NCBI RefSeq assembly: GCF_964355755.1
Contig: NC_092680.1
Location: forward strand, 20,747,001-20,811,000
Source: Antedon mediterranea
Lineage: Eukaryota > Echinodermata > Crinoidea > Comatulida > Antedonidae
DNA length: 64,000 nt
Reading direction: 5' to 3'
Shown: one piece after another, positions 278-45,346 of the stretch
Numbering within the stretch: the stretch's first letter is position 1
How the letters are laid out: the number at the start of each line of letters is the position of its first letter
Position numbers and translations under genes: made by a program
Notes under the pieces: generated by a model
What the model saw: the letters and a program-made list of their open reading frames with translations, nothing else
The model's database searches: none
What the model was told of the DNA's origin: nothing

Positions 278-3200
278 CTGATTAATTAGTGAAGAATACT
301 GAACAGAAAAATGTACAGTGAATATCACCATTTTAAACTTATTTATTTGTTGGAATTGGAGATGAAACTTTTTACATTTAATACAAATCAAGAATTAACC
401 AACCACCTGCACCAGCACTGTTTATTAAGTGAGCAGGATATTATTTGTTATAATATTGTGTTAGGGTAATAATAGTGTAGATGATGAAAGTGACAGGGTA
501 AGTATTACCAAGGGTTTTCTAAACATTACAGAACCCTTGAGCATTCTCTAATGTTACTAACATTCATCTTCTAAAATCCCATTGCTACCATAAAGGATAC
601 ATAAAAACAGGTATTCCTTTAGCTGTTTCCTTAGCAGTCGTTCTGTTCCATACCAATTAAAACCTGCTGTTGCATAGCCTATCCTTGGCAGGTAAACACT
701 TGCTACAAAATTGATTCATTTAATTTTATTTCATATATTTCGTCAAAGAAGTATAAACACAGATATCTTATTTTTTAGACAATTCTCCTAGAGAGGCCAT
801 ATTGTAAGAACAACAAGTAAAGAGTAACATTGTCAAGATAAAATCTATGAAATTTTTTAATCATCGTCGTGGTATTTTAGAACAATATAATATATTTTTA
901 TTGCCTTATAAAAATGTTGATTATAATTATTATTGATGAAGTATAATGGATAATAATAATAAAAGCAAGAGATGTTTACCTTTCTTTTTTTTGGCAATAA
1001 CATAGATTTTTTGAAGAGCTGTCTCTAATGCAGATAACTTAATACCTGATAGGTTGTTATACTTATCCCTATGCTGAGCCACTACTAATATCAGCTGCAA
1101 AATAATTTATATATTTGTTTATTTAATGTTATATTATGTTTATTTCTTTAAATTAAATCACAATTTTAATCGAATCAACATTCATGTGACATGTCGAAGC
1201 ACTGTGTTGGAGAGTTATTGAGTTTTAGGTGTCCAAGTAAAGTGGTCTGTAGTCATAGTAATAGGTCATCCATTAAGTGGTCTGTAGTCATAGGGATAGG
1301 TCATCCATTAAGTGGTCTGTAGTCATAGTAATAGGTCATCCATTAAGTGGTCTGTAGTCATAGGGATAGGTCATCCATTAAGTGGTCTGTAGTCATAGTA
1401 ATAGGTCATCCATTAAGTGGTCTGTAGTCATAGTAATAGGTCATCCATTAAGTGGTCTGTAGTCATAGTGATAGGTCATCCATTAAGTGGTCTGTAGTCA
1501 TAGTAATAGGTCATCCATTAAGTGGTCTGTAGTCATAGTAATAGGTCATCCATTAAGTGGTCTGTAGTCATAGGGATAGGTCATCCATTAAGTGGTCTGT
1601 AGTCATAGTAATAGGTCATCCATTAAGTGGTCTGTAGTCATAGTAATAGGTCATCCATTAAGTGGTCTGTAGTCATAGTAATAGGTCATCCATTAAGTGG
1701 TCTGTAGTCATAGTAATAGGTCATCCATTAAGTGGTCTGTAGTCATAGTGATAAGTCATCCATGGAACTAGTAAACCTACCCAATCTTTAGTATCTTTCT
1801 GTGATTTTATATCATCTAATTTCATAAGGTGTGCATCGCCAAGGTTTAAATCTAAAGAATAAAACAAAGACAAGAATCTATCCTTAATTATATCAATGAT
1901 AATAACAACACTTTCAATCAAATTTACAGTAGTTTCACAATAGGTTATGTATATAAGATTCATAAACTCTAAATATTATTGATTTAATATCAATTTAATC
2001 AATATAAAATAAAATACAGCAAGCTATGCCAAAGTGTAATTAATGACCACAGACATTAATTAAGGGTATGTTTGACTGTCATTATTTATCTTTATCTATA
2101 TATTATTCAGGTGAACAGCATTACACACCTTTCATCTCACCAGCTAGTTCATACCTATCAGCTGGCGTTGGACTGCGTGCATCAATGGCAGAGAATAAAC
2201 CACCTGAACCCCAACTACCGCTGTCATCTATACAAAAAGAAAAAAGAGATTTTACTTTTAATATGAACACTTAATTTTGTTTGCAAAAATTGAATTGATG
2301 AGGAAGTAATGATTAATGTCTATCTCTTTCTCTATGTTTTAATTTCTCATTTATTTCTTTTTTTGTTTTATCCTACATTTCCTTGCACATGGTTGTGGTT
2401 CTGATGATTTACAAATGTATCAATACTATATCAATTAATTCATTACTACAAACAAGAATTGAAAGTACTGAAATCTGATAAAATAAAAAAGAAATGTTAA
2501 TTTTAATATGAACTAAATTCTTTTTTATCCTCCATTTCTTCGCATAACCTTTAAGCAAATATAGACGATTTAGTAGTGTATCTTAAGTACTGAAATCCAG
2601 TATTTAGAAAGGAACATTACATTTCAATGAAAAATGCACAATTTACACTCTTCAAAAACTCACCAACACAATGAACAATGAGGGCGTCCTTGCCATTGGT
2701 ATTTACTGGATGTGTAACGTCACCACCAACATAACCAAGAGGTGTGTCATCTTGGTCATCTAATTCATCTTCATCCTCTTCATCTTCAGATGGTACATTC
2801 AGAGATTCATAATCATTCTCTTTCCACATTTTCTCACTGAATAAAAAAATTCAAATATAATTATAATCTTTTCTGTCACCAATGTTACAAAGTTTTTTAA
2901 AAGGTCAAAGTTTACAGATAAATAAAATATAAGTTATCATTGGTTAGCGCTTACAGTTTTCGTCTTCTTTCTTCTGTTCGTTTCATTTCAGCTTCCTGCT
3001 TCAGTCTAGCACGTTTGGTGGCAGCATCTTGTCGTTTCTTCTTTAATTCTTCCTGTTCCTCATCTGTAAGAATCTTCCTCTTTCTATGTGGTAAGTCTTT
3101 TAATGACAATGATGATGTGTTCGTACTTCTCCGTGACCTTTCACCTGATGTGCTCTGTTCATTTTCTATTATCTTGGCTACGTAGTAAAGTAACATTTAT

Positions 3201-6200
3201 TTTATTTTATTTATTTTATGTCTTTAGGCAATGTGGCCAAGGATTACCAATAGTGAATTAATCACTGTCCTATCAGATAGGTGGTAATCCTCCTGATACA
3301 GGGGCTATTGTGTGAACCAGTTCACCGGGGTAACCCCCTACTCTTTTTCGAATAATGAACTGGGTTCTTTAAAGTACACACAGGTTATAACTGTGTACAC
3401 TGGACCTACGGTTTATAGTCCTTATCCGAGAAGACTTGTTCCACCACCAGAACTAGGAGCGAGTCGGCCTCGAACCCTTGCCGATGTTGTTGTTGGCTCT
3501 TTAGATACGGTAAACGGCGCCCCTGCCTTAACCGCTTGGCCATATGACTCGCAATTTTGAATAGTTTAATTAACAAATTTGTGTTTTTGTTAATCCTTTA
3601 GGTACACAGCCATGGATTATTAAGAGAGACTGTGTCCACCCATCTGTTGAAGATAGAATTGTTTTGATATACAAGTACAAAAATATTTGCACATTTTTCA
3701 AGTATGCTTCAACCCTTATATTTTATATGACAATCACCATTCACAAACATTAAAAATGATTACCTGCCAACATTTCATCAAAAGCATTGAGGGCAGCAGA
3801 GCTGGTTTCTTTCGAGTAATCTTTACCTTCAAACATGTACATGTGACAATCTAATATTAAAATGTATATCAAACAACAAATTATTAATATAAAACTTAAG
3901 AGGCCAATAGTAACTTTATTCAGTCTGTCCTACTACGATTGCTTGAGGCTGTACTACTGAATTGAAGTCAAGTTGTAATTTATTTTTCTCAATTCTACAT
4001 TAAATAATAAATTAATTCCAATACCTTGCGTTTGGAAATCCTCACATGAGTCACTTATCAACTCAGCATCATCTTTGGCAGCGTCTAAATCCTCGTTATT
4101 CATCTTCCATTCTCCATCTACACTTGGTCCTAGTATTCTCTCAAGATCAATTCCGTTTGTCTGTTCTTCTTCAAGGAGTTTATCAAGTCCAAACTTAAGC
4201 ATTTCAGACAGCTAAAAAAAACCCATGTTCTACATTTGTTATAAATTCTCACAAAAAAAAAAATAAAACAAAAGAAATGAATTTTACATGAAAATTCAAT
4301 GGGCTCAGAACTACAACCACCAGGAAATAGATTTTGGTCCTAAAAAAATAATTTTTATATAATTAGTCATAACTAACACACCTGTTGTGGAGTTTCTGAT
4401 GTACCATTCTTGGTGCCTAAGGAGAATTGACCGCCCTCTATCACCGAATTGGTTAGCTTAAGCTTAGCATCTGCCCTTCGTAAAATCACTTCCTCAACTG
4501 AATCTTTTCCAATTAAACGAATAATCTTTACTGGCCTTAAAAAAACAAAATAAACAAGTTTTGATTAACAATAAAAACAAAAGTTTAGAATTTAGAATAA
4601 AGCTATTAGAAACAGATTACAACTAACGTTTTCAAGAGTGCATTGAAAACCTATCTGCTTTGGTTTTCCACAAGCGCCTTGAGCACTTTGGTGGATATGT
4701 ACGCCTAACAAATCCTATTATAATTTCTATGATGTATAAAGAAAAAATAAGATAACTTACCGAGATTGTCCAATTCTATGAGCACGTGCAGAAGCTTGTA
4801 GATCATTCTGTGGGTTAAAATCTGTATCCAAGAATATCACGGTGTCTGCACTAACCAAGTTTAACCCTTGACCTCCAGCTTTAGTACTTAGTAAGAATAC
4901 AAATGTCTTGTCATCTCGATTAAAATTCTTAATTGCTAAGAATCGTTCTTCACCTCTCACTGATCCATCAAGTCTTTCATATGAGTAGCCTAGTGAGCAC
5001 AATAAAGAAACATAGAATGTTAACAATACAGGTCTGTTTTACAGTACAGTGATGTAGCCTCAAGAAAGTGGTACAAGAAAAGGAAACAATATCTGTTTAA
5101 GTCACTTGGTTGTCAAAGGCCTCTGTAAAAAAGTGGTCAGGTTGAAACTTTACAAACCTTATTAGTGGCTGAGGCCCTGCAGTAGTTTTGATAGCTTTTT
5201 TAAATGTTATATATTATATGTATCTCCACTGATGTCCAGCCACTGATACACACGGCATTGTCAATTTTTTAAACAAGTTGCCTTTCGATATACAACTATA
5301 TTAGTAATGTAACAGATGGATACAATTTGTATACTGTATTGTGGATTTGTGGTGTAAATTATGTATTTATGTGTGTTTGACCTGAATAAATGAATACCCT
5401 CGGTACTCTTTGGTGTTTGTGTTCCTAAAACTGACCTCTGAATCCTAGGTAATCCTGTACTATGTCCAACATCCTAGTCATCTGAGAGAAAAGAAGGACC
5501 TTATGACCTTGTTGATATAGCAACAGAAGTAGTTGATCTAACAGGTGCAATTTACCACTTGCTTCAACCAGGTGTTCCCCAAGTTCAAATGGCTCTGGTT
5601 CCACACCTGCATAGAGAAAGTTTACCTTTCCTTACTTCAACTTTTTATGGTAAGATTTGATAATCTCTAAAGGAGGTACTGTATTAATAAATTGAACTAC
5701 TGTATTAATTGAACTATTGACATTAAAAAATATTAAGTTGAAAATTAGGATTAGTAAACAATGCCCAGGTGGAACTTAACATAAATTTTAAAGTGTATTA
5801 TTCTCACAAATCATGTGCAAAAGTACATACAATACAAATATCAAAGCAATGAAATTCCTAAATAAAATTACCATCAAATAAATATGGGTGACTGACACAT
5901 TTCCTGAGTTGAATCATAATGTTCATAAGTTGTGTCTTAGATGGTCCAATACAGTCTTGATTAAATGCAGCTGGAAAAAGAACATACAGAAACTATTATC
6001 TAGTACTCTTAATTACAAGTTGTACGTAATAACATTAAAAACTGTTGAACCAGAGGTGTACAGTACATGAGAAATGTCATTAAAGTGAAGCTACAGCTTG
6101 AATTAGCAAAATTAAACGATATTGCTTCGTAAAGCTCAGCTTTATTAGATTCTTGGCCTTTTAAAATCGATTCAAGTTTTTTTTAACAAACGATTCAAAC

Positions 6201-9200
6201 GATAGCTGGTCTTCGCTTTCGAATTCAGCAGGCTTGGTATTTGCTCGTGTAGATCGTGACATGGCTTGTCGTGATTGGCCTAGAGAAAATTAATATGCTA
6301 AGTAGTGCGTTTCAGGAGCTCGTTGTGTAAGCGTCTTACTCCGATCGAATCATTGAACTGTATTGACCTAGTGCCAAGGTTGTAACTCACCACTCTTATC
6401 AACTCCACTCCCTAAGCCTCAAATGAGACTTAGTTTATAAGCATGATAAATTATTAAATAGTTTATCCATCCTGTAATTGGCGAGTTTACTCACTGTTGG
6501 ATATAAGTATGAAATTAAAAAAAAGGTGATATAAATCCGATTGAAAACTTGCTTTATAAATGTCACAAGATGGATGCACAGAATTCAACTGACCATAGTC
6601 TTTAAGAAGCACAGCTTTGTAGTACTTTTTCTGTAGGGCTGTTATTCCATGAAATAGAACAACTTCAGTCTTCTTTGGCAGATCACTCAAAACTTCTGAT
6701 TTAGTTCTTCTGAGTAGAAAAGGTGACAGCAAGTTGTGCAACTGGTTTTTCACTGTATGTGTATAATATAATAATTCATTATTTGGAAGGTTGAATTTCT
6801 ATAGTTTTAGATTTTTAATACAATCATTTAGAAATGTCAAGAATTTGTTAATATGCCTAATTTTTCAATTTCTTTGTTATAAAAGGCTGTAGAACAAATT
6901 AAGCAGAGTATATTTATAGACAAGAATTAACTCAATTGTTTTTGTTTTTAAATCCAATTTAGAACTACCTGAATCGTCATCTATATTTTCAAAATAATCT
7001 ATGAAATCTTGCGAGTATTTCTGTTTGAATATCTTGGGTGCAATGAATGCTAACAGGTTATACAGTTCCTTTAAATTATTCTGTACTGGTGTTCCTGTGA
7101 GCAGAAGACGTTGTGTCACATCAAACTAGAACAAACAAGAGGGCATATTTGTAGTTATAAACATATCAAATAAAGACTGTGAGCTTGAACAGGATCATGT
7201 AGGCAAATACAGTAATCTAATTATAATACTTTTTTTGAACATAAAAACACCTTTAGTTAAATGATATTGACTTACATTACTGAGTGCTTGATGAAGCATA
7301 GAGTTTGAGTTTTTAAGTCGATGAGCCTCGTCAACTACCAAGGCTTCCCATAGTATGCTCTCGAGAAATGCAACATCTTTAAGCACCATCTGAAAATATA
7401 TTGCTGGAGTATTAATATACACAGTAATAAATATTGCTTCCTTCTTCTAGCAATCGTGCTGGAGTTGACTCTATGTTGCAGGTGCAAACAGTGATGTTGT
7501 ATATTCATATTCACATTCAATTTTGTTGTATCTATATTTTGCAAATTTAACCTGAACTGTGACATGTACATGACCTGTACTACTATTAGTAATATTCAAT
7601 GTAAGACTTATTTATTACAGATACCTCATAAGTTGTTAGTATCACATGACCTGTACATTACCTGTACTACTATTAGTAATATTCAATGTAAGACTTATTT
7701 ATTACAGATACCTCATAAGTTGTTAGTATCACATGACATGTACATGACCTGTACTACTATTAGTAATATTCAATGTAAGACTTATTCATTACAGATACCT
7801 CATAAGTTGTTACTATCACATGACCTGTACATTACCTGTACTACTATTAGTAATATTCAATGTAAGACTTATTTATTACAGATACCTCATAAGTTGTTAG
7901 TATCACATGACATGTACATTACCTGTACTACTATTAGTAATATTCAATGTAAGACTTATTTATTACAGATACCTCATAAGTTGTTACTATCACATGACCT
8001 GTACATGACCTGTACTACTATTAGTAATATTCAATGTAAGACTTATTTATTACAGATACCTCATAAGTTGTTACTATCACATGACATGTACATTACCTGT
8101 ACTACTATTAGTAATATTCAATGTAAGACTTATTTATTACAGATACCTCATAAGTTGTTACTATCACATGACATGTACATGACCTGTACTACTATTAGTA
8201 ATATTCAATGTAAGACTTATTTATTACAGGTACCTCATAAGTTGTTACTATCACATGACATGTACATTACCTGTACTACTATTAGTAATATTCAATGTAA
8301 GACTTATTTATTACAGATACCTCATAAGTTGTTACTATCACATGACATGTACATTACCTGTACTACTATTAGTAATATTCAATGTAAGACTTATTTATTA
8401 CAGATACCTCATAAGTTGTTACTATCACATGACATGTACATGACCTGTACTACTATTAGTAATATTCAATGTAAGACTTATTTATTACAGATACCTCATA
8501 AGTTGTTACTATCACATGACCTGTACATGACCTGTACTACTATTAGTAATATTCAATGTAAGACTTATTTATTACAGGTACCTCATAAGTTGTTACTATC
8601 ACATGACATGTACATTACCTGTACTACTATTAGTAATATTCAATGTAAGACTTATTTATTACAGGTACCTCATAAGTTGTTACTATCACATGACATGTAC
8701 ATTACCTGTACTACTATTAGTAATATTCAATGTAAGACTTATTTATTACAGATACCGCATAAGTTGTTACTATCACATGACCTGTACATTACCTGTACTA
8801 CTATTAGTAATATTCAATGTAAGACTTATTTATTACAGATACCTCATAAGTTGTTACTATCACATGACATGTACATGACCTGTACTACTATTAGTAATAT
8901 TCAATGTAAGACTTATTTATTACAGATACCGCATAAGTTGTTACTATCACATGACATGTACATTACCTGTACTACTATTAGTAATATTCAATGTAAGACT
9001 TATTTATTACAGATACCTCATAAGTTGTTACTATCACATGACATGTACATTACCTGTACTACTATTAGTAATATTCAATGTAAGACTTATTTATTACAGA
9101 TACCTCATAAGTTGTTACTATCACATGACATGTACATGACCTGTACTACTATTAGTAATATTCAATGTAAGACTTATTTATTACAGATACCTCATAAGTT

Positions 9201-11187
9201 GTTACTATCACATGACCTGTACATGACCTGTACTACTATTAGTAATATTCAATGTAAGACTTATTTATTACAGATACCTCATAAGTTGTTACTATCACAT
9301 GACATGTACATTACCTGTACTACTATTAGTAATATTCAATGTAAGACTTATTTATTACAGATACCTCATAAGTTGTTACTATCACATGACATGTACATGA
9401 CCTGTACTACTATTAGTAATATTCAATATAAGACTTATTTATTACAGATACCTCATAAGTTGTTACTATCACATGACATGTACATGACCTGTACTACTAT
9501 TAGTAATATTCAATGTAAGACTTATTTATTACAGGTACCTCATAAGTTGTTACTATCACATGACCTGTACATGACCTGTACTACTATTAGTAATATTCAA
9601 TGTAAGACTTATTTATTACAGATACCTCATAAGTTGTTACTATCACATGACCTGTACATGACCTGTACTACTATTAGTAATATTCAATGTAAGACTTATT
9701 TATTACAGATACCTCATAAGTTGTTACTATCACATGACATGTACATGACCTGTACTACTATTAGTAATATTCAATGTAAGACTTATTTATTACAGATACC
9801 TCATAAGTTGTTACTATCACATGACCTGTACATTACCTGTACTACTATTAGTAATATTCAATGTAAGACTTATTTATTACAGATACCTCCTAAGTTGTTA
9901 CTATCACATGACATGTACATGACCTGTACTACTATTAGTAATATTCAATGTAAGACTTATTTATTACAGATACCTCATAAGTTGTTAGTATCACATGATA
10001 TCCTTGTGATCCATTTTTAATTCTTGTTTGAATGTCAGCTCTTATCTCCTTATCACCAATGTACCGAACAATCTTTAAGCAAGGGGAAAACCTGTAATAA
10101 AACCATATAAGTCATATTTCGTTATTAAGTTATCATAAATATACATTACGTTATACTTTTTACACAATAAATAAGTTATTTTAAAGGTATACTGTATAAT
10201 ACATTTTATTATTATTTTTATTGTGAAAATTTGGATCTATTGTCTTGTTTATATTTATTTTACTTATATATTTTGTATGTTATTGTAACTTGTTATGTGA
10301 GCGATTGTGCCTGTCATGAATTTCCGCAAGGACCAAATAAATCTGAAACTGGATCTATGGTCTAATGTCAAATCTAAAACCCATTTAAGCGAAGCACACA
10401 ATAGCCTGCGTCATTATCTTACTTTTCAAATTCATTTTTCCAATTATCCATGACCGATAGAGGGCATACCACAATTAAAAGCGTTCCTTTTTGTTAACCA
10501 TTGCCAGAACTGCAATTGTCTGCAAAAAAGTAAAAAAATAGTTTTATGATCAAAATCTTATGTCACCAATGATAAAAAATGATTGATGATGATGTATAAA
10601 ATGCAATGCAAAATTACTGACTGTAGGTTTTGAAACGATAAATAAATGAACGATAACAAATTGACGATGATATATCTAGTATAATTGTTATGATATGAAT
10701 GGGAAAGAAGAAATGATGGTCACGTACTTCACAGGTCTTTCCCAGACCCATTTCATCTCCCAGGATACATCCGTGGTTTTTCAAGCAGCGTGCAACCATC
10801 CATTTTACTCCTTCCACCTGATAAGGTCTTAAGTGTTATCCCTAATAAAGATAAAATGTCGAAATAATAACAATCAATTAATAAATACAAAGTGACAAAC
10901 GTCTGTGATTTAAAGCCGATTAGTGTAACATCTTTGTCGATTATTAAGATTGATATTGATATCAGCATAGTTTGACACCACAATCAATAGTTAATCTTGA
11001 CCTGCCCTTCAAACCACAATGCAGCCTGTAGGCTAGGCTAGCCTAAAATAAAAAAAGGCCAGCTACTTAGAGGTCGAGTATAGGCCTAAAACTAGGCCAC
11101 TTCATTTATTAATAAACCATCCATATAACTTATTATAACAATAACATATAAACATAAGCGCCTACCTTTCAAGAATGGTTCAATCAT
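28..11187 (-). CDS. CHD1L: CHD1L/ALC1-like chromatin remodeller, copy 1 (20 exons seen, frame-broken)
   Basis: Exons read on the minus strand, in order: 11187-11166, 10841-10728, 10519-10423, 10091-9974, 7389-7276, 7125-6969, 6752-6594, 5970-5872, 5606-5436, 4989-4761, 4535-4382, 4211-4025, 3850-3764, 3177-2955, 2836-2664, 2227-2129, 1851-1781, 1094-980, 702-601, 277-28. All have GT/AG borders with matching phases and follow vertebrate CHD1L from motif I to the end of the macro domain. The family slides nucleosomes with ATP once its macro domain binds poly(ADP-ribose) at DNA breaks in the nucleus. The chosen start (MIEPFLKG) gives a shorter N-terminus than the human protein and is uncertain. 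Three frame breaks are visible: an extra A near 10829, one missing base near 10488-10492, and a 7-bp deletion near 624. The last exon runs towards the window edge, so the gene's 3' end is missing. It may be a pseudogene or contain assembly indels. Confidence 0.9.
601..2836 (-). CDS. CHD1L: CHD1L copy 1: macro domain (exons 15-19), with 7-bp frameshift
   Basis: Exon 2836-2664 ends in YVGGDVTHP and ALIVHCV. Exon 2227-2129 gives [16 protein letters not shown] and YELAGEMK. Exon 1851-1781 gives [13 protein letters not shown], 1094-980 gives [15 protein letters not shown], and 702-601 gives [20 protein letters not shown]. The order matches the ADP-ribose-binding macro domain of CHD1L. In the last exon copy 1 lacks seven bases (plus-strand GCCAGAT, between 624 and 625) that copy 2 has. 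Copy 2 reads [13 protein letters not shown], whereas copy 1 shifts to [10 protein letters not shown] and puts the BRCT exon out of frame. Confidence 0.9.
1238..1766. repeat. 35-bp minisatellite, ~15 copies, next to a splice donor
   Basis: A head-to-tail array of a 35-bp unit beginning AAGTGGTCTGTAGTCATAG, with variants TAATAGG, GGATAGG and GTGATAGG. It begins only about 15 bp downstream (in transcription) of the donor of the 1851-1781 exon of CHD1L copy 1. The same place in CHD1L copy 2 (63476-63546) has just two units, so it expanded after the duplication or contracted in copy 2. Confidence 0.95.
2955..4211 (-). CDS. CHD1L: CHD1L copy 1: linker and basic coiled segment (exons 12-14)
   Basis: Exon 4211-4025 encodes [13 protein letters not shown] followed by an acidic stretch. 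Exon 3850-3764 encodes [12 protein letters not shown], very close to the human linker. Exon 3177-2955 is a charged Lys/Arg/Glu-rich helix ([19 protein letters not shown]). In the human enzyme this linker holds the macro domain against the ATPase in the inactive state. A tRNA-derived SINE sits in the intron between the last two exons. Confidence 0.88.
3205..3556 (-). mobile_element. tRNA-derived SINE in CHD1L intron
   Basis: Read on the minus strand the head contains an A-box-like TGGCCAAGCGGTTAAGGC (about 3543-3526) and a B-box-like GGTTCGAGGCC (about 3477-3467), spaced as in a tRNA-Leu/Ser-like RNA polymerase III promoter. A body of about 250 bp follows and ends in a TTTATT-rich tail near 3205. 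It lies in the intron between exons 13 and 14 of CHD1L copy 1. The tRNA part lacks a complete cloverleaf, so I call a SINE rather than a tRNA gene. Confidence 0.75.
4382..5970 (-). CDS. CHD1L: CHD1L copy 1: helicase lobe 2 (exons 8-11)
   Basis: Exon 5970-5872 gives [14 protein letters not shown], the conserved hinge. Exon 5606-5436 gives [14 protein letters not shown] (motif IV). Exon 4989-4761 gives [29 protein letters not shown] (motif V) and RAHRIGQ (motif VI with its arginines). Exon 4535-4382 gives [17 protein letters not shown], the C-terminal bracing helix of SNF2 enzymes. All four are open and in phase. This half couples ATP hydrolysis to DNA translocation, and no catalytic residue appears lost. 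Confidence 0.93.
5037..5405 (+). mobile_element. Short retroelement 3' end (tentative)
   Basis: The intron between exons 9 and 10 of CHD1L copy 1 has a block ending in TTTGACCTGAATAAATGAAT, a tail typical of non-LTR elements and their SINEs in marine invertebrates. Similar short tails occur at 10250-10360, 29880-29950 and 44500-44550. The left border is uncertain. Confidence 0.35.
6594..11187 (-). CDS. CHD1L: CHD1L copy 1: SNF2 ATPase lobe 1 (exons 1-7)
   Basis: The exon at 10841-10728 carries Walker A/motif I (DEMGLGKT) after the Q-like motif [10 protein letters not shown]. The exon at 10519-10423 carries [10 protein letters not shown] (motif Ia). The exon at 10091-9974 ends in VILTTYE (motif Ib). 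The exon at 7389-7276 has the DEAH box in [10 protein letters not shown] (motif II), 7125-6969 has [11 protein letters not shown] (motif III), and 6752-6594 has [19 protein letters not shown]. Splice phases join all seven. The junction AAA-G|GG-ATA fuses exon 1 to exon 2, but exon 2 then has one base too many (CTTAAGACC where CTTAGACC keeps frame), and exon 3 needs one more A in its run of five to reach LLIVVCPL. As written, motif I is out of frame with the start. Confidence 0.9.
7560..9973. repeat. 87-bp minisatellite, ~28 copies, carrying a splice donor in each unit
   Basis: An array of about 28 near-identical 87-bp units in the intron between exons 4 and 5 of CHD1L copy 1. On the minus strand the unit contains ATGTGATAGTAACAACTTAT then GAG|GTATCTGTAA. 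This is the last 24 nt of exon 4 plus its 5' splice site and early intron. The array abuts exon 4, which ends at 9974. Units near both ends have TTAGTATC where central units have TTACTATC, as expected when the middle is homogenised. Because 87 is a multiple of three, both strands show long periodic open frames, but none looks like a protein. Confidence 0.97.
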
Positions 11188-11224
11188 TAACAATTGAAAC
11201 AAATTATTTTGCTTTTGTTTACAG

Positions 11225-11398
11225 ACATCTTCATTGTCAAGTTTATAAAGGAGTTGACTTATTTTATTCGTTTAGGAATCATCGTTCTAGGCCTAGGCCT
11301 ACTAGTGTACTGGCTTCAGTGGGGAATCACACACGTCCAAACTTGTATGTCCACCGCCAGCACAATTCATGGTATGGAAATAGAGGGAGACATCAAAC
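11225..11398 (+). other. Possible single exon of an unknown plus-strand gene
   Basis: A good acceptor (TTTTGCTTTTGTTTACAG) precedes a 174-bp open segment that ends at AAAC|GTAGGC. It would encode about 58 residues with a hydrophobic stretch (LGIIVLGLGLLVYWLQWGI) flanked by charged ends, like a single membrane pass. It begins about 40 bp upstream of the proposed CHD1L start, on the opposite strand. No partner exon is recognised, so this is tentative. Confidence 0.2.
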
Positions 11399-14336: not shown

Positions 14337-15059
14337 GCACACATTCTGTTGCCTGAAAAGTCTTGCTAATTATGTCCAATGTTATTTTCTTATGTACTGC
14401 ATTTGAGTATTCATGAATACTCTAGTGGGAACCAAGCTTTAGTCTAAAGTTTGATGCAACTTTAACATTAAGGAGTAAAAAATGATAGTGAACTTACATA
14501 GAGATCCAATGAGATAATCGTAAAAACAAAACTACTATGTACAATGTTGTAATAAGGAAAAACATTGAATCAATTGTGGTCTAATAGTTTGGATTTCCAG
14601 TTCTATTTCTGTGTAGCATATTTATTTATATTACTCTATGGTTGGTCAAGTTATGATTGGGCCTGGGTGCTAAACTACACATGTCATCTCTTAATTTCAA
14701 TGTGGTGACTTCTGGGTGATTTAAACAGAAAATAACCTATAGATACAATACCAACTGTCAATTACCAAGACAATTTGGTCTAAATCAAAAACCTCTACTT
14801 TCACCTATATACAACATTTATAACAACAAAATATCAATTATCAGGGTATAATGCCTCTACCTTTATATTACGTAGGCCTCTGTGTCCAAAACAATCTGCA
14901 CAGAAGTATATAGAGTATTATGGAGTGGAGAAGATATCACAAATCTTTAAACAGCGAATCTTCAAAAGGTTGTCTGAAAATTATTAAAATAAGAACCAAA
15001 CACGTTAACCACTTGATACGTGGTTCCCTAAACTTATTTGGTAATAGTTCAAATCGGAT
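14337..15059. other. 3' flank of ROCO copy A, shared with copy B
   Basis: This segment aligns by eye with 44450-45440 downstream of ROCO copy B (shared blocks GAGATCCAATGAGATAATC and GGTTGGTCAAGTTATGATTG). It contains one copy (about 14731-14768) of the 37-bp unit that is repeated about 15 times in the copy B flank. It is probably 3' UTR or downstream sequence, with no convincing ORF. Confidence 0.6.
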
Positions 15060-15845
15060 CTATTCTAACTTTCCTGCAGCAACTGTCATCTTGTTCAAAT
15101 TCAAATATTCTTTATTCATCCTCAATCATGAAAATATACAACAACAATATATGAGAACAAAAAAAGGTGAAAGGGAAACACATAAAAACTCAAAAGAGCT
15201 TGATTAGTTGTGTCCCCCTATGTCCCTAACTAACCTAAAAAACTAAAACATAAATAATAAAAAAGCTAAATCCTGCAACAAGTATTATTTTTAAAATTAT
15301 TTGTAAAATGATAATAAATGTTCTTTAAACAATGATTTAAATATATATATTGATTTGGTACTTTGTAGTTCGTCTTCATCTTATTCTTTTTCAAAGTTTT
15401 AACAAATGATTGCAATTTATTCTTCCCTTAGAATGCCCCTTTCTTCAAGATCTAGTATCACAGTCCACTGGTTGTCACGTTGTTTCCTAGAAACATCATT
15501 TAGATGAATGAGCTTTGTTACATTGTCTTGGGAAAAGCATTTTGCCGAAATCTATCGGCTTCTGTCGATACGTAATTGTAACATTTGTTACATGATGGTC
15601 GTATTCATCAAACGCGTTCTTAAGATATTTGTTAGCCTCAAGAGCACCTTGGGTACCGGTGACATTGCTGATATCGATAAGAACTTTAAAGTTGGTAGTG
15701 GTAAGATAGCCAGCCTGTTTCAACAAATTACTCCATGGTGGTATCAGCCTTCTGTAGAGCATTGTAAGGTGTTATCAGATCTTTTCACAACACCTTCATC
15801 ATATCAAGTGAGTCATGCTCATCATACCAATTGTCTGAATTTATG
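15060..15845 (-). pseudogene. ROCO copy A: broken last DED exon (DED-b)
   Basis: Matches the intact exon of copy B (46187-45661) but is damaged in four ways. Its first ~45 bp and acceptor are missing or changed near 15835. A 5-bp loss after the TTME codons gives a stop. One extra T near 15535 shifts the frame after DFGK. A 279-bp retroelement interrupts it at 15097-15375. The protein of copy A probably ends early or in this wreck. Confidence 0.8.
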
Positions 15846-18800
15846 ATGTGATTCTGTATAAAAACAATACTTAATATATTAACATGATATTGTAGACATT
15901 GGTACACGAACGAGTAAGTAACAATCTATGTAGTTATTTTACTTAATATAAATATCGTTACCTCCAAAAATCCTCAATGACACTAACTCTGACTTCGACT
16001 CTGACTTTGGCACTTACTCATGCTTTGGCTTTAGCTTTGGCACTGGCACCGACGTCTTTAGTTCTGGCTTTGGCACTGACTCTGGCTTTGGCGCTGGCAC
16101 TGGCTTTAGATCTGACTCTGGTTTTGGCACTGACTCTGGCCTTGGCGCTGGCACCGGCTTTAGCTCTGACTCTCGCTTGGGCACTGACTCTGGCTTTGGC
16201 GCTGGCACTGGCTTTAGCTCTGATTCTCGCTTTAGCACTGACTCTGGCCTTGGCGCTGGCACCAGCTTTAGCTCTGACTCTCGCTTTGGCACTGACTCTC
16301 GCCTTGGTTTTAGCATTGGCTTTGGCGCTGGCACTGGCTTTAGCTCTCGCTTTGGCACTGACTCTGGCCTTGGCTTTAGCCTTGGTTTTGGCGCTGGCAC
16401 CGGCTTTAGATCTGACTCTGGCTTTGGCACTGACTCTGGCCTTGGCGCTGGCACCGGCTTTAGCTCTGACTCTGGCTTTGGCACCAACTCTGACTCTAGA
16501 TCTGATGCTGGCAATGATCCTAGCTTTGGTACTGGTTCTTTAGTAGGGCCTATATAATGCAATAACACAATACTAGCATTAGTATAGTTTTATTTTGATT
16601 GATAATGATGAATAGTGATGACAATGATTGAGAAATAATTATGATGAAGTAGTGACGAAGATAAAGCATAACAGCCTAACGATACCTAACTATCCATAGC
16701 TTTCTTTCTACATGGAACAGAAATAAAATATTATAATACAAAATTAAATACTTACATAAAATATTTCTTGCTTTCTTTCCAATACGTGCTGCAAACGCAC
16801 TTAATTTGGATGGTTCATCCTCAAGCTGTAATTCACTTTCCAAGTTAAAAACCACGTCCCACATGTTTTGAAAACCAAATCTTCGTAGTCCATAATAAGC
16901 AATGACATCTTGTAACTCCTTTTGTCCCACTTCGTTCAATGCCGTAAACAATCGCTTCCGGTAAGAGGATAACTTATCACCAGTACATTTGACGTTGTTA
17001 TCTTTCATATACTGCTTTACCTGATCTACAGCAAGCTGCAAACCTGATAATTCGGCAACCTCAAACAGGATGGTGACGTCATTAGGTTTGATTTCACAGT
17101 GGTCATGGAGTATATTGAACAAATCAGTTGCTATGAAATCAGTACCTGTGAGGTATGCTCTAGGAATAACATCAAACAAGCAACATTTTAGCCAAAGGTA
17201 TCTTTCCCCATCATAGTGTTTGCCAAGATTATATTTGAGGTTGTTGAACTTGGTTTGTAAGTCTGACATTTCACTAGATGTTGGTTTGGTCTGAGATTCT
17301 TCAGACAACTCTGTACAAAGACAAAATATAAGAAAATTATTTTCAACAAATAGTATTATTATGACACTAACACTGGAAATAATACAATTACAACAATATC
17401 AGGTCAATTGTAGAATTGAATTATGAATACCAGGAACCACACAAGATGAGAAAATAGGTGAAGGCAATTACACAGGATTAAGATGTTGTGGTATGTCTGT
17501 ATATGCATATATGCTGTAAAAACCAACATATAAATTCAATACACATTATTGGTACAACCATGGACCTATTATAGGTCAAAGGTACAACTATGATTATATA
17601 AAAAATAAACACTGTGCATAAATTGATGGTATAAGAGCAAAGAACTGGTACAAGTTCTTATCTTGTCAAGTATCTTGTTCCTTAGTTAACGTTGGTGCAA
17701 ATTAAAACAAAAGATTGTATATTTGTAAGATGAGGTTTCTTTCTTTAGAAAATAATTATAACAAAAATGTAATTATAACAAAGCTGGTTAAGACAACGAT
17801 AAAGCAAAAACAACACTTAATATATTAACATGATATAGTTTAAATTGGGAAATACAACGAACGAATAAGTAACAATCTATATATTTATTTTACTATATAA
17901 AAATATCGTTACCTCCAAATACCCTCAATGACACTGACTCTAGCTTTGACGCTGACTCCGACTCTAACGCTGGCAACGACTCTGGCTTTGGTACTGGTTC
18001 TTTAGTAGGACCTATATAATGTAATAACAAAATACTAGCATTAGTATAGTTTTTATTTTGATTGATAATGATGAATAGTGATGACAACGATTGAGATATA
18101 ATTATGATGAAGTAATGATGATGATAAAGCATAAAAGTCCAACTTACCAGTTGAAAAAAAGTGTTTGATGTGAGCAGTATCCATAGCTTTCTTTCTTCCA
18201 CATGGAACAGAATCATTTTGCAAACACTTATCAAGATCAATTAAGTGATGCTCATATGGTTCACAAGCAGTGCATAACACACGTAGATTGTAGCCAATGC
18301 CCTTGTAGATATTGCAAACAGTTTTCAGTTGCTCCTGCAGGTAGTTTAGAACCTAAAACATGGATTGACATTTAATTTTTGGTAAATTTATTTTTATTCA
18401 TTTTGTGTTATTTAAAACATATTTTTACAGGATAAAAATAATTCAGAAATATGGTAGTTTTCAATATGGTCCTGTTTAAAGTCATAACTAAAACAAATGT
18501 ACTATTTGTTTGTTATTTTGTTTAAATGTAATAATCTAATATTGATTACCTCTATGCAGACACTAGGTTGTGGTTCAGATATCAACTTTCGTTGAATTTC
18601 ATCAGCTTCTGTACCAACACGACGCTTGATTTTATTCCAGCGTGATATTTCAAGCTATTAAGGAAGATATTTATTTAATAACAAACTCATCAGATTTAAT
18701 TGCTAATAATACACGATTTAATTTATTTTGCACCGTTTGTACATTATTATGACCATACTAAGAAAGTAAAAGTGTGCAAAATAGACAGAGAGCAAATTGC

Positions 18801-21800
18801 ATACACTACATTTCAACAATTTTATAATATTGAAATACAAAATACTAAATCTTGAACTATAATATAATCTTTTTTTGATCAGGCGTTGAATGCAAATTTT
18901 ACAAGATTTTTCTAGTTGTCTTTTAATGATTTTTTCTAGTTGTTGTGTTTATTTAATATTTTATTACTATATAATTTACATTTAATTTTACATATATATA
19001 TATATATACATTTAGTTTTTATATATGTAAAATTGCCTGTATTTCTTTTATTGAATAAAAATATACCTTAAATAATAATAATGAATGAAATCTGTAATTT
19101 ATTTCATACCTTTAATGCGTATGGTTTTTCCTTTTCATGGTTAATTTTGACAGAACCTAAACTGACAGTGTGATTACTAAATTTGAAATCACTACGATTC
19201 CGGAACACTTCTGATTCATCACTACCCTTTTCAGTCATCAATTCGAGGAATGCAACAACCAAAGTGTTGTACACAGCGTCAGGAAGAAAGTCTGTCGGAG
19301 TCAGATAAATTGATACCGTTTGTGCGTCATCTGCTGTGACTTTCAGAATGTCTTTTTTGTCAACTTTCATTCGGCAAGGAACCAGGAATACCCGATTACC
19401 TTCTTCAATTCCCTGTTAATATAAACATCACAATTACACATAAATTGGTACAAGTGATTAGTAAGAGCTTGATCAAAGAAACCGTTAAAAGTTTATAGTA
19501 TTTACCAACCTTTCTCCTCTCAAAGAGCAAACGAAAAACTTTCATCAATTCTACAAAGACATCAAAGAGATCTTCATCTTCGTTTCTCCACAAATAACGT
19601 AGTAACTTTTCCTCAAGAACCCCTTCATTGCTCAGCTTTTCCCATAGCATCTGTAATTGCTTCCGATCTTCTGCTTCATTCTGTGCACAAAAAACACAGT
19701 AAATATAGAACAACTGATATATTAAAGCAACCAATATAATACCAAGTTTCAAAACTATAGAAGGCTACATTATTCTGGGTCATATTATTTTACTCTAATG
19801 TGAAATCTAGTATTATATATAATATTCCATGCCTATTATATATACCTACCACCTCAATAGTTGGCGTAACTACTGTGATAACTTTAGTCAAAATTTGAAT
19901 CATCCAGCAAAGATTTGTTATCACAATGTCTCTTAATTTCTCATTATTCCTGGTATACATGATTATTCCAGTGTCATTCAGATACGTTATCACAGTGGTG
20001 AGCACATGTTCGGATATTCCACATTGAGTTGCCATCTCAGATACCTAATACAGAATTAACATTTTATTATAATGGTATTACACGAAATTCACTCGACAAA
20101 TAATAAAACAGGAAAGTACTAGTTTAGTACAGTAATAGTAGTTACTGCAACTACAAGTCACTGTATTGGAAATATTATACCAGCTGCTCACGACCGTGTT
20201 AAAATGTTTGATTATAATTATTCACTTTCTAAAGTAAACATTCAGAGTACACATACAACAATTTGAAATGACAGGATACTCTAATTTGCACATATTGCTT
20301 CAAATTATCCTAAAATGGCATTTGTTTAAAAACGTTTGTATATATACTGCTAATCTGATTTACATCTGCCTATGTTTACATGAAAACCAAATTCATTCAA
20401 CCCTTACCTCTTTCAAGGTAATGTACAATCTTGTTTTTCCAATTATTTGCAACTTTTCCTGCAAATTAACCCACTTTACAGGAACTTTCTCCACCATTGC
20501 TTTCATGTATCTACCAACGTTTCGTTTAAGTTTTTCAATACCTTCATGTGACTTTAAAGTGTTATCCACCATGTACATTTCACGATCTACATGCTTGGCA
20601 TACGGCATTCCTTTCATTGCATCAAACATCTGCATGAACATCCCCTCAGCCTTTATTTGATGAAATTGTATAATCATAACATTACTAATTAATAAAGTAT
20701 GTTTCTTTTCTTTCTTATACTACAAATTTGTTCAGTTTTATTGAATAGTTATATAAATGTATACTACAGTTATTACCTTTATCTGTTTTTCTGTTGGTGT
20801 TCCTGACAATTTGTCCATATGTGTAGCAATCAAACAGATTGGAGGTGACTCTATGCTCTTGTCATCAACCAAAATGGGATTTCCTAAATCATGTTGTAAC
20901 ACAGTATGTTCATAGATGGACCTTATCCAGAACAAATTCATGTCCAAATTGGTCATTCCGAGTGAATCCTGAAATCAAAATCAAATTGTAATTTAAAGTT
21001 TACTAACATTATAACTATAATCAATACCAAGTTATGTTTTAAATTAAACAATTGACTGTGAATAAATTTGACTTACTATTGACGAATCTCGTGGATTAGC
21101 TAATTCATTCAAGTTGTTCGTAACACAAAATGCCACACAATACGACACTTTATTTGTGAGGAAAAACTAAAAAAACACAAAAGGCTAATAATGACCATAT
21201 AATTTTTCCAGTTGGAATTTAAGATTCATTGTAGTTATCTGTGAATGTCAAAATGGTCAAAATGTTATACATTGATGTGGGTTTATTTGTAGTAATTACA
21301 TTACATTGTTTGTTGATAATATTTCCATATATTATTTAAACTTAAGAAGTTAACAAATGAAATTAGTCTTATCAACAGTATACCCATAAAGGCCAACTCA
21401 GACAGCATCGTACAATGAGGCCTGACGAGAAAATTAAACATTTTTAATGTTTTCCCAACAATCTAAAAACTATGCTCGACGCTATATGAAGACAACTCGT
21501 CAGGCCTCGTCTCGTCAACTCAGACAGAACCAATGAGTCAAGACCTTTGGTTGGGCCTTAAGAAGGAAGCAAATGATACACTTTATTTAACTATACGCAT
21601 AAGAAAGAAGCAAAAGATGCACATCTAGTTTTAAATATGATTTTACAACACAAATTATCCCAAAATAAAAATAAACATACCCTGTGTGTTATGTAGTAGT
21701 CTAGTTGACCAGCGTAGTCCCATATAGTAGTTATGTCACTCACATCTACTTTTCCTGTTGCCTTTGTAAAACCTTTCCATGCAATATTCACAACTTTAGC

Positions 21801-24800
21801 CCAGATTGTGCCATTGCCTTTTAAACACAATAAAAAAAATCACTATGGTAATATTGCTTGATCAACCTAAATCTGCATATATAAAAAATAATAACATTCT
21901 AATGTTTTAGTATGTGCTTACCTTCATCTAATTCCTTTTCTAATGCATTTGCACGAATTTGCTTGGATAGTTCAACACCTTTAATACAAAGCAAGAAAAA
22001 TGAAACATGTATATTTATAGATCAACAATATTTAAAAATGAAATACATGTTTAAATACATTCTAACATTGTTCTATCATTCTGAACAATGCTTTGTTAGT
22101 TTGTTTGATGTAACTCACCATCTACATCTTTCACTTTTTTCCACTCTCTACAATCCTTCTTTGTTGCTTGAAACACTGTAGTTGTTACGATACCATCGGT
22201 TGATGGCTCTCTGGAATTGAAGCTAATATAACAATGTATAGTAAAGTTAAACATAATTAAAGAATATTCAAGACTGAAACATATATTATTTACTGAAAAA
22301 CAGAAATTATAAAAAAATTAAAAAGGCAATCCTAGCTAGCATAGGTTTACTTTTATACAACTATGCACTTGAGTAAAAAGTTAATACAAAAAATCATCTA
22401 ATAATAATGTTTAAAATACAAAAATACTAATATTAAACAGGATTTTACAGTTTCTAAGTTTTCAATAATTCTGTCTGAAAATTCAATTCAATTCAACAGG
22501 GAATAATGTTTTTGAATAAGCAAACAGGCTTTCTTTTCAAAGTACTATTGATACATTACTACAACAAATACTTATCGATTTTTTCAGGGAAGAGTGACAA
22601 TAATTTTAGTATTCCCTGGTTATCTATTACCTTTCACCAAGCATAGCCTTTACACAACTAGTCTTGCCAGCACCTTCTTTCCCAAGAAACATACATCTTG
22701 AATTCACAACTGCAATTTCACCATTTTGAAGCTCATATTTGTATATTTTAATAGCATATTTACCCTTGGAATATATCTCTGCTGGAACTAATATTTCTAA
22801 TAAAAAAATATTATTATAACACTTTCAAAATGTCAAATTTCAAATTCATTTTTTATTTGTTTTCATACATACCCTCTTACAAGCTAATAATATTAACATC
22901 TAAATAGACATTGATAAATAATTTAATTTTTGTCAAAGATGTATTGTTCCCCCCAAAACATGAAAAATGAAGACTTTGAATAAGCCATTATCCAGTTATA
23001 ATAAAGTTATTCAAATTCGTGGAGATAAAAAGAACAAAAATAATAATAATTTCACATAACAGGCAAAATAATGTTTGACCGACAATTATGACTATTTTTG
23101 GCTTTCAAGTAGGCTACTGTAAATCAATATTTTTTTCGATCCAAATTTTGGTCAAAGTGAACTAGCATATTTACCATTGGAATATACTGCTGGAATTAAT
23201 AAATGTAATATAAAAATATCAAAATTTTAAACAATTTCAAATATTGTTATTGTTCATAAATAACCTCCTACAAGTTAAAAATAACAAAGTAAGGCATCAC
23301 TTACTGTCAAAGTCAAATTTTAAAATCTTCTTTCTTTCATCTGGGTATATGTATCTATTATTTTCTAAAACAGTCATTGGTGTATTTCCTTCCTATAAAC
23401 AAATTAATGTTTTAGTTAGTATTAACAAATAATATGAATTGATAATATTTGCTACTGAGCGGTACTATCCAGACACCATTATCAAATAAAAACCATTATC
23501 AATAGTAGACTATGATATCTATAAATGTGAAAGAGACACACATGCTAGTATGCTTCATATACAGACACTACTACTTGATAGACCCTACCATTAAAACAAT
23601 GGTGATTTCATGCACTCTCAAAGTCAGATTAAATAGCAAACTCCTTTATTGTATTTATTTATTATTAATTAATTAATTTTTAAATTTAACAATTCAACGA
23701 CATCAAATGAATAATAATAATTTTAAAACGGATATTGTCACTTTTTAATATATTGGTATCTTTGTTAAACAATAAAAACATATTGGTAAGGTATGGTAGG
23801 GACCCTTTCCAAATCTATTTGTGGTACACCCAAAATATCCATATCTCTTCACACTACAAAGTTGCATATAATGGTGTGTGTAAATTTATTTCTTTTCTAT
23901 TGGAAAGGAAATCGGAGATAAATCGGATAGAACCCATATTATAGTAAGAAGTCTATAAAGGCAATGCGATGATCAAAGGGCAAACTGCTTTTTAGTGAAC
24001 TACCGTAATCAATACATTTTTATATATTTCATGATGTAAATTATGTTATTTGCTAGTTTGTTGTTATTGTATTACAAATAGTTAAAGACTAAAAGTAGAA
24101 CTGAAAAAATCTTTATATAACTATAATAATCATGAAGTTTTAAAAAAAACTAGATAAAATATTTTTCTGACACATTAATAATAATAATACATTTTACTCT
24201 GTTGTGTTAGGTTTACAATATATACTATATATTATTCATATTATGATATTATACCATTCTCAATACAGTAAATAATCCTAATTACAGTATTTTTAATGAT
24301 AAACAAGACACGTGCAGGAAGTGATTAATTGATTATCGTTATCATGAGTGAGAGAAAATATGGCTACAGTTACTGTAACCATATTTTATAGTAAGAATTA
24401 TCTTTGTAACCTTATGAAATGTTATACCTAGTCTTGAAAATAATTTCAATTTGAAATTAGTAAAATTACTTCTTTTTTGTTGATCCACTACAAAAAAAAC
24501 CCAAACAAGTATGTAATAAGTATGTTGAAGTTCGTGTATGTACTGTCACACAGTAATTGTGTATTATTGTAAATAAAACAATTACCTTATTTTGCAATGA
24601 CAATGATGCACCATGCTGTTGTATGAGGAATTTCACTATTTCCAAGGTACAATATATATTTCCCACATACAAATGAAGTGGAGTGTTTCCATCCTTGATA
24701 AACAAAATCATAATCATAAGTTCAACAATATTGATAACAGCTATATAAGTAATTGATAAGTGCTAAATAGACAACCAATAAATGTATAGCAAAACACATC

Positions 24801-27800
24801 TCATCACAGATGGTAAAGTATACTGTGTGTATTCTCTTGCAACTTAATCCTGTAGTAAATTTGTTGCAGTTGGTTCATTATAATTTACGTCATTGTCTAC
24901 CTTTGTTACAGTATCTTTACATAGTAATTTATGCAATCTTATGAATTGTTATACCTAGTCTTGAAAATAATTTCATTTTGAAATGAGTAACTTATTTCTT
25001 TTTTTGTTGAGCCAATACAAGAAAACAAATAAGTATGTTTAAGATTGTGTAAGTACTGTCATACAGTAAATGTATAATTGTGAAAAAAAAATTACCTTAT
25101 TTTGCAATGTTAGTGATTCACCATCCTGTACGAGGCATGTCACTATTTCTGATGCAGGTATATATCTATTACTCACATACAAATGAAGTGGAGTATTTCC
25201 ATCCTTGATGAACAAAATCATAATCATAAGTTCAACAATATTGATAACAGCTATATAAGTAATTGATAAGTGCCAAATAGACAACCAATAAATGTATAGC
25301 AAAACACATCTCATCACAGATGGTAAAGTATACTGTGTGTATTCTCTTGCAACTTAATCCTGTAGTAAATTTGTTGCAGTTGGTTCATTATAATTTACGT
25401 CATTGTCTACCTTTGTTACAGTATCTTTACATAGTAATTTATGCAATCTTATGAATTGTTATACCTAGTCTTGAAAATAATTTCATTTTGAAATGAGTAA
25501 CTTATTTCTTTTTTGTTGAGCCAATACAAGAAAACAAGTAAGTATGTTTAAGATTGTGTAAGTACTGTCATACAGTAAATGTATAATTGTGAAAAAAAAA
25601 ATTACCTTATTTTGCAATGTTAGTGATTCACCATCCTGTACGAGGCATGTCACTATTTCTGATGTAGGTATATATCTATTACTCACATACAAATGAAGTG
25701 GAGTATTTCCATCCTTGATGAACAAAATCATAATCATAAGTTCAATAATATTAATAACAGCTATATAAGTAATTGATAAGTGCTAAATAGACAACCAATA
25801 AATGTATAGCAAAAAACATCTCATCAAAAATGGTAAAGTATACTGTGTGTATTCTCTTGCAACTTAATCCTGTAGTAAATTTGTTGCAGTGTAAATTCAT
25901 TATAATTTACATCATTGTCTACCCTACAGTATCTTTACATAGTAATTTATGCAATCTTATGAATTGTTACACCTAGTCTTGAAAATAATTTCATTTTGAA
26001 ATGAGTAAATTATTTCTTTTTTGTTAATCCAATACAACAAAACAAGTAAGTATGTAAATAAGTATGTGTAAGTTTGATGCGGAATTTCACTATTTTCAAG
26101 GTACAATATATATTTCCCACATACAAATGAAGTGGAGTGTTTCCATCCTTGATAAACAAAATCATAATCATAAGTTCAATAATAATAATTAATTCCTTTT
26201 TGTTGATCCACTACAATAAAAAAGAAAAAAAAAAGTATGTAATAAGTATGTGTAAATTTGTGTATGTACTGTCATACATTAAGTGTTTATTAGTGAAAAA
26301 ATTACCTCATTTTGCAATGTTAATGATGAACCTTGATTTATAAAGAATGTCACTATTTCCAAGGTACACTTTCCATAACACAGATAAACATGAAGTAGAG
26401 TGTTTCCATTCTTGATAAACAAAATCATAATCATAAGTTCAATAATATTTATAAAATCTATTATAAGTAATTGATAAGTGCTAAATAGACAACCTATAAA
26501 TTTATAGCAAAACACATCTCATCACAAATGGTAAAGTATACTGTGTGTATTCTCTTGCAACTTAATCCTGTAGTAAATTTGTTGCAGTTAAGTTCATTAT
26601 AATTTACATCATTGTCTACATTTGTTACAGTATCTTTACATAGTAATTTATGCAATCTTATGAATTGTTATACTTAGTCTTGAAAATAATTTCATTTTGA
26701 AATTAGTAAATTTTTTCTTTTTTGTTAATCCAATACAAGAAAACAAATAAGTATGTAATAAGTATGTGTAAATGTGTGTATGTACTGTCATAAAGTAATT
26801 GTGTATTATTGTAAATAAAACAATTACCTTATTTTGCAATGACAATGATGCACCATGCTGTTGTATGAGGACTTTCACTATTTCCAAGGTAAAATTTATA
26901 TTTCCCACATACAAATGAAGTGGAGTGTTTCCATCCTTGATAAACAAAATCATAATCATAAGTTCAATAATATTGATAAAATCTATATAAGTAATTGATA
27001 AATGCTAAATAGACAACCAATAAATGTATAGCAAAACACATCTCATCACAAATGGTAAAGTATACTGTGTGTATTCTCTTGCAACTTAATCCTATAGTAA
27101 ATTTGTTGCAGTTTAAATTCATTATAATTGTAATAAATGTATGTAAGTTTGTGTATGTACTGTCATAAAGTAATTGTGTATTATTGTAAATGAAACAATT
27201 ACCTTATTTTGCAATGACAATGATGCACCATGCTGTTGTATGAAGACTTTCACTATTTCCAAGGTACACTTTCCATAACACAGATAAAAATGAAGTGGAG
27301 TGTTTCCATTCTTGATAAAAAAAATCATAATCATAAGTTCAATAATATTGATAACAGCTATATAAGTAATTGATAAGTGCTAAATAGACACAAAAAAAAA
27401 AGTATGTAATAAATGTATGTAAGTTTGTGTATGTACTGTCATAAAGTAATTGTGTATTATTGTAAATAAAACAATTACCTTATTTTGCAATGACAATGAT
27501 GCCCCATGCTGTTGTATGAGGACTTTCACTATTTCCAAGGTACAATTTATATTTGTCACATACAATTGAATTGGAGTGTTTCCATCCTTGATGAATAAAA
27601 TCATAATCATAAGTTCAATAATATTGATAACAGCTATATAACTAATTGATAAGTGCTAAATAGACAACCAATAAATGTATAGCAAAACACATCTCATCAC
27701 AGATGGTAAAGTATACTGTGTGTATTCTCTTGCAACTTAATCCTGTAGTAAATTTGTTGCAGTTAAGTTCATTATAATTTACATCATTGTCTACCTTTGT

Positions 27801-44156: not shown

Positions 44157-44790
44157 GGCTTACGTACGTCCTGGTGTCTTCAAACTGACATGTTTACTCA
44201 ATATAACAATTAAAACATTTGAAAATTACTAGCATTCAGATTCTAATTTATTAAAATGTATCATTCTGTATGGACTAAACTAATAATTCACTACAGTATA
44301 TTTTATATGAAATATGTCTTTAAATATACATATAAACACAATCACTTTAAATTTGATGAAATCTTAGTAGCAAACTCAAACATATAAAAGCATAATAAAA
44401 AATAAATATATAGTAATAAAAAATACATACTTTAACATTAGGAGTAAAAAAAAAAATAGTTTTTTATTTACATACATAAGATGATATGCCAGTTTTCATA
44501 ACAAATTTCTGTTAATTCTTTGTAATAGACAAATAAAGATACTATGACTATGACTACATAGAGATCCAATGAGATAATCTTAAATACAAAACTACTATGG
44601 TACAATGTTGTAATAAAGGGAAAATGTAGAATCAATTGTGGTCTGATTGTTGTGATTTCCAGTTCTATTTCTGTAGCATATTTATATATATTACTCAATG
44701 GTTGGTCAAGTTATGATTGGGCCTGGGTGCTAAACTACACTTTTCATCTCTTAATTTCAATGTGGTGACTTCTGGGTGCTTTAAACAGAA

Positions 44791-45346
44791 AATAACCTAT
44801 AGTTACAATACCAACTGTCAATTACCAAATAACCTATAGATACAATACCAACTGTCAATTACCAAATAACCTATAGTTAAAATACCAACTGTCAATTACC
44901 AAATAACCTATAGATACAATACCAACTGTCAATTACCAAATAACCTATAGATAAAATACCAACTGTCAATTACCAAATAAGCTATAGATAAAATACCAAC
45001 TGTCAATTACCAAATAACCTATAGATACAATACCAACTGTCAATTACCAAATAACCTATAGTTAAAATACCAACTGTCAATTACCAAATAACCTATAGAT
45101 ACAATACCAACTGTCAATTACCAAATAACCTATAGTTACAATACCAACTGTCAATTACCAAATAACCTATAGATAAAATACCAACTGTCAATTACCAAAT
45201 AACCTATAGTTACAATACCAACTGTCAATTACCAAATAACCTATAGTTACAATACCAACTGTCAATTACCAAATAACCTATAGTTACAATACCAACTGTC
45301 AATTACCAAATAACCTATAGATACAATACCAACTGTCAATTACCAA
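44791..45346. repeat. 37-bp minisatellite, ~15 copies, 3' of ROCO copy B
   Basis: Unit AATACCAACTGTCAATTACC plus AAATAACCTATAGATAC with A/T variants (GATAC, GTTAC, GATAA, GTTAA). The matching site downstream of ROCO copy A (14731-14768) has one unit. Confidence 0.96.

Follow-up and report, generated by a model that had tools for sequence, protein, structure and literature searches.

One of two CHD1L copies in the crinoid Antedon mediterranea carries, across the border of its fourth exon and fourth intron, an 87-bp minisatellite that repeats the exon end and its splice donor 28 times. We consider it likely that this array, in copy 1, is a young minisatellite grown over an exon border, that it belongs to a recurrent class in this genome, and that it is tolerated through splicing within a decaying gene copy. 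Positions without a contig or locus name refer to the window, the whole stretch of 64,000 nucleotides that was analysed. The features around the array are as follows, a slash within a motif marking the exon border.

9974-10091, minus strand: exon 4 of CHD1L copy 1, 118 nt, the final 24 nt of which seed the array; the one-unit counterpart in copy 2 is at L009
9963-9973, minus strand: donor 1, GAG/GTATCTGTAAT, the sole donor among the 28 that preserves the reading frame
7560-9998, minus strand (C11:20754560-20756998): 87-bp minisatellite of 28 units, each with the 24-nt end of exon 4, the donor and 63 nt of intron 4
7614-7624, minus strand: donor 28, nearest to the acceptor; if used, it would leave an intron of about 234 nt, close in length to the one-unit intron of copy 2 (207 nt)
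7390-9973, minus strand: intron 4 of copy 1, 2,584 nt
7276-7389, minus strand: exon 5 of copy 1, beginning after ATATTTTCAG

TRF resolved the array into 28.0 copies of the 87-bp unit with 97% match, 0% indel and a score of 4633 (7560-9998), head-to-tail repeats within the range of about 10-100 bp that defines a minisatellite. A preliminary description had proposed a unit of exon end, donor and early intron repeated about 28 times, and this was confirmed on the minus strand, where 28 near-identical donors, GTA(T or C)CTGTAAT, occur with all 27 of their 27 spacings at exactly 87 nt. The span that it gave, 7560-10091, extends past the array to the 5' limit of exon 4 (9974-10091). The exon part of the unit reads CATGTGATA, C or G, then TAACAACTTATGAG (24 nt), and the 63-nt intron part begins with GTATCTGTAA. 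Each unit has the donor GAG/GTATCTGTAAT, typically GAG/GTATCT, identical to that of the exon itself as in the human IFI6 gene discussed below; GTATCT is found in 24 of 28 units and GTACCT in the other four. Two of the 28 units carry GCG/GT instead of GAG/GT, differing at position -2. The segment from TACTAAT to TACAG is invariant across the 28 units, and the sequence TACTAATAGTAGTACAG is present in every one. An array of 28 copies cannot be due to chance. On its plus strand there is an 841-aa open frame (window 7495-10020), as is to be expected of a unit whose length, 87 nt, is divisible by 3; the frame does not point to a gene.

Long tandem arrays are difficult to assemble, and the HELLS donor array described below has matches offset by about 1.6 kb that resemble a duplicated block. 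That the copy 1 array is itself an assembly artefact is nevertheless extremely improbable: its units vary as a patchwork, and its single-copy flanks align to the paralogue. The units comprise 14 distinct versions and the longest pair of identical runs is three units, which argues against a simple assembly duplication.

The identity of the host gene, named as CHD1L in the preliminary description, was established through the paralogue. Exons 1-13 of copy 2 joined in silico give an open protein of 600 aa, whose best solved match is 7epu, human CHD1L, with E = 1.7e-216 over 563 aa; it is thus an SNF2 ATPase best matching CHD1L (ALC1). Macro-domain exons are seen later in the gene in both copies. 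The window ends within copy 2.

60001-64000, minus strand: 3' end of CHD1L copy 2, the remainder lying beyond the window in L009 and L030

A genome search with one unit returned the 28 matches of the array and a single further match, in CHD1L copy 2, about 62 kb away. The same intron of copy 2 holds one unit within its 207 nt and no remnant of an array. As the paralogous intron has one unit, growth of the array after a recent duplication of the gene is most likely, and the lack of any remnant in copy 2 makes growth in copy 1 likelier than collapse in copy 2. The change in copy number would be recent, given that introns 2-12 are 93-100% identical between the copies (intron 1, 84%). A second array differs in the same direction, and one intron of copy 1 has an insertion that is missing from copy 2 (window 3240-3560); with tRNA-like boxes GGTTAAGGC and GGGTTCGAGGC, the insertion is probably a tRNA-derived SINE.

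1240-1763, minus strand: 35-bp array wholly within a later intron, 15 copies in copy 1 and 2 in copy 2 (63473-63543)

Copy 2 has a frame open across 13 exons, whereas the frame of copy 1 is open in exons 4-13 and fails in exons 1-3.

11166-11282, minus strand: exon 1 of copy 1, 5 nt longer than in copy 2; reads MIPKRIK and then a stop
10728-10841, minus strand: exon 2 of copy 1, 1 nt longer than in copy 2; frameshift
10423-10519, minus strand: copy 1 exon 3, with 97 nt where copy 2 has 104 (net -7); frameshift, with an in-frame stop after ERF

Because of these lesions, full-length CHD1L cannot be made from copy 1 as assembled. Copy 1 is probably a decaying duplicate. Its exons 4-13 differ from those of copy 2 by 11 non-synonymous and 10 synonymous changes (pN/pS 0.3). 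Beginning at a start further on, copy 1 could still yield a shorter protein under constraint; alternatively the damage could be very recent, or the indels of exons 1-3 could be assembly errors.

The consequences of donor choice follow from the frame. A unit is 3 x 29 nt and preserves the frame, and the sequence retained with any later donor runs GTA TCT GTA ATA AAT AAG TCT TAC ATT GAA TAT TAC TAA, so every donor but the first leads to an early stop. Where introns are short, splice sites pair preferentially with the nearest site on the other side of the intron (PMC9225289). By this tendency donor 28 is a serious candidate for use in the cell, and such pairing would favour a stop-containing mRNA. 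According to a textbook donor matrix with approximate frequencies, the normal donor GAG/GTATCT is weak (0.75 bits), and 13 units hold a stronger CAG/GTAATG at +51 (3.57 bits on the same approximate scale). Column variation across the 28 units revealed no conservation of the donor columns: 3 of 10 donor columns are variable, and of the remaining 77 columns 5 are (Fisher p = 0.046), a difference toward more variation at the donor. In none of the other three border arrays described below is there a significant difference between site columns and the rest. Selection preserving the donors of the array is unsupported by this variation. Since copy 1 is probably a decaying duplicate, its donor choice is likely to be free of selection and would probably be mixed.

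The preliminary description saw in the array a ladder of equivalent donors, whose copy number changes the intron and perhaps the transcript. In a functional reading of this kind, many of the 28 donors would be used and the number of units would tune the level of productive mRNA. Such a working ladder is unlikely. It would draw on 28 near-identical donors that all match the normal one, on the stronger donors lying beside that weak donor in 13 units, and on introns that are short here, so that nearest-site pairing would favour donor 28 and its stop-containing mRNA. However, copy 1 with its frame-breaking indels in exons 1-3 seems incapable of full-length CHD1L whichever donor is used, later donors reach TAA 13 codons on, the donor columns are not conserved, and copy 2 is without sign of a donor array. 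We regard the 28-donor array as most likely passive, in a damaged gene copy.

That array units could act as micro-exons, as was also suggested, is scarcely conceivable. Each unit does contain TACTAAT, an AG and a donor, yet a usable acceptor needs a workable branch distance and the first AG, and the unit offers neither: the branch A lies 11 nt from the last AG, two AGs are nearer, and a pyrimidine tract is absent. The resulting micro-exon would measure 37 nt, shift the frame and read TGA. Branch-AG spacing and frame together rule it out for copy 1.

Alignment of the two copies revealed that copy 2 in turn has an array missing from copy 1, 22.9 copies of a 90-bp unit at L009 2379-4439 (C11:20813379-20815439). 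Its unit joins the end of intron 9 to the start of exon 10, running from TTGTTAAC to TTTCTTTATTGTGCTCACTAG at the intron end and opening the exon with GCTACTCATATG, and 23 acceptors were counted.

4761-4989, minus strand: copy 1 exon 10, preceded by one acceptor, where copy 2 has 23 repeats of this border

Acceptors 1-22 lead to a stop if used, and the frame is preserved only by acceptor 23. A donor-like GAG/GTGAAG lies 36 nt past the acceptor in every unit, and an in-frame micro-exon of 36 nt with a 54-nt intron is formally possible in copy 2; stepwise splicing through the array would add 12 in-frame codons per unit. The CHD1L copy 2 gene looks intact.

Two further border arrays are found on contig C3 in a gene whose best match is lymphoid-specific helicase (HELLS; 9z04, E = 4e-71). 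They are two exons apart, in a locus made up of L067, L061 and L027.

C3:1610272-1614445: HELLS donor array, 94 x 44 bp, each unit with an exon end and GAG/GTAAGC
C3:1615653-1617058: HELLS acceptor array, 39 x 36 bp, each unit with CTCCTCCCAG/GTCCCTGT

GAG/GTAAGC is intact in 65 of 93 units of the donor array. Of the acceptor choices tested, only the last reads on into the following exon with no intervening stop. The self-matches of the donor array, offset by about 1.6 kb, possibly reflect a block duplication or an assembly duplication. The HELLS gene looks intact. The units of every border array (copy 1, copy 2 and the two in HELLS) are confined to their own locus, that of copy 1 being present once more in the paralogue. 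A dispersed repeat or mobile unit is ruled out, as each is restricted to its own locus and any single-copy counterpart.

Since the CHD1L pair and HELLS each hold two border arrays, one could suppose that splice borders in this genome actively attract minisatellites, through R-loops, for instance, or through spliced RNA being copied back. Arrays in helicase-type genes were surveyed, and in this small, non-random set of 13, found partly through paralogy and with the copy 1 array left out, three hold a border against 2.2 expected (P(>=3) = 0.38, Poisson-binomial, the null being built from the exon density of one gene, CHD1L, and the 32-bp array at L071 being entered as non-border without a known gene structure). 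Several of the surveyed arrays are purely intronic, and those below were judged to hold no border.

C11: 56-bp array
C5: 39-bp and 69-bp arrays
C3:37.65M: 28-bp and 33-bp arrays
C6: 55-bp array, ending just before an acceptor
L069: 29-bp array, beginning about 20 nt after a donor
L070: 38-bp array, ending about 15 nt before an acceptor

With three seen against 2.2 expected, chance placement in intron-dense genes and survival of those arrays that splicing can remove suffice, and a border preference in the birth of arrays is unneeded; active attraction is thus very improbable.

For the copy 1 array the route that we infer would begin with a tandem duplication of the segment that reaches from 24 nt on the exon side to 63 nt on the intron side of the exon 4/intron 4 border, after which the duplicated unit would have grown to 28 units via slippage or unequal exchange. 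More generally, minisatellites would arise often in intron-dense genes, some of them spanning a splice border by chance, and those would survive because the array is still spliced out in full when the outermost site is used. For copy 1 that site would be the exon-proximal donor, all others being predicted to give early-stop transcripts.

Tandem growth can also be seen elsewhere in the window. A second duplicated gene with ankyrin-like exons occupies 14495-31000 and 44555-57300, and a 37-bp array in it (44790-45346) has 15 copies in one gene copy and about one in the other. On the minus strand at 27129-28754 there are about six tandem units of 276-286 bp, each with an ankyrin-like exon, so that here whole exons appear to have multiplied through tandem growth of a similar kind. 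An 81-bp array (42563-43438; 10.8 copies, 99% alike) holds a 293-aa plus-strand open frame, possibly coding, in which EYIACRRRAIREEDYGSLLPIVLVFSD is repeated. Two forward frames of 36-48 kb, scanned against Pfam, had no match. Several unrelated genes (L015 2702-2893, L021 1863-1933 and L031 1039-1166) contain a dispersed 21-bp minisatellite, which reads GTGATGTGCCCAAATATGGTA or the complement of this.

Donor minisatellites are already known. In human IFI6 a minisatellite supplies multiple splice donors (Turri 1995, as cited in PMC4526556), and that citing account has downstream repeat units used as donors, giving three mRNA species (PMC4526556). As far as IFI6 is described there, the copy 1 array resembles it in being an exon-end minisatellite with a donor in each unit and several donors in a row; it differs in its size of 87 bp x 28, in being known from sequence alone, in that its later donors break the frame, and in its damaged host. 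Internal tandem repeats have been described where exons meet introns in human segmental-duplication paralogues (De Grassi and Ciccarelli 2009, PMC2812944), and there, as here, recent paralogues differ in minisatellite copy number at such boundaries. Those repeats average about 30 bp x 4, 160 bp in all, compared with 87 x 28, 90 x 23, 44 x 94 and 36 x 39 here. A potato RdRp gene gained an intron when a segment crossing an intron-exon border was duplicated in tandem (Ma, Lan and Niu 2016, PMC4974935), the duplicated segment comprising branch site, pyrimidine tract, acceptor and a donor from formerly exonic sequence (PMC4974935). The unit of CHD1L copy 2 has the same parts; the potato case is one duplication, whose new intron has transcript support, whereas copy 2 has 23 units read from the genome only. 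A limited literature search found no precedent for an acceptor ladder. The earlier remark that few introns are built this way is not supported, in view of IFI6, the boundary repeats of human paralogues and at least three more such arrays in this genome; new to us are the sizes of the ladders, the acceptor form and the recurrence in one genome.

We propose tentatively, and with slightly more doubt than belief, that this genome holds a general class of donor and acceptor ladders, which put 20-90 near-identical sites into an intron and have arisen again and again as minisatellites grew over exon borders. If this is true, the cell needs a rule for choosing splice sites that holds over 90 equal rivals. 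The CHD1L pair suggests that such minisatellites can be born and reach 20-30 copies on one duplicate only, within a few percent of divergence. Choice between identical splice sites has mostly been studied in built constructs with two sites. The introns described here are natural cases, with 28 or 94 equal donors in the two donor arrays and 23 or 39 equal acceptors in the two acceptor arrays, and among their hosts are the intact-looking CHD1L copy 2 and HELLS genes. With the frame preserved by the outermost site only, each ladder would pit exon-proximal against intron-proximal choice within a living gene: nearest-site pairing (PMC9225289) would ruin the messages, while use of the outermost sites would save them. 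The broader class of ladders in intact-looking genes is more interesting than the copy 1 array itself, and may serve as a natural test of how cells pick splice sites.
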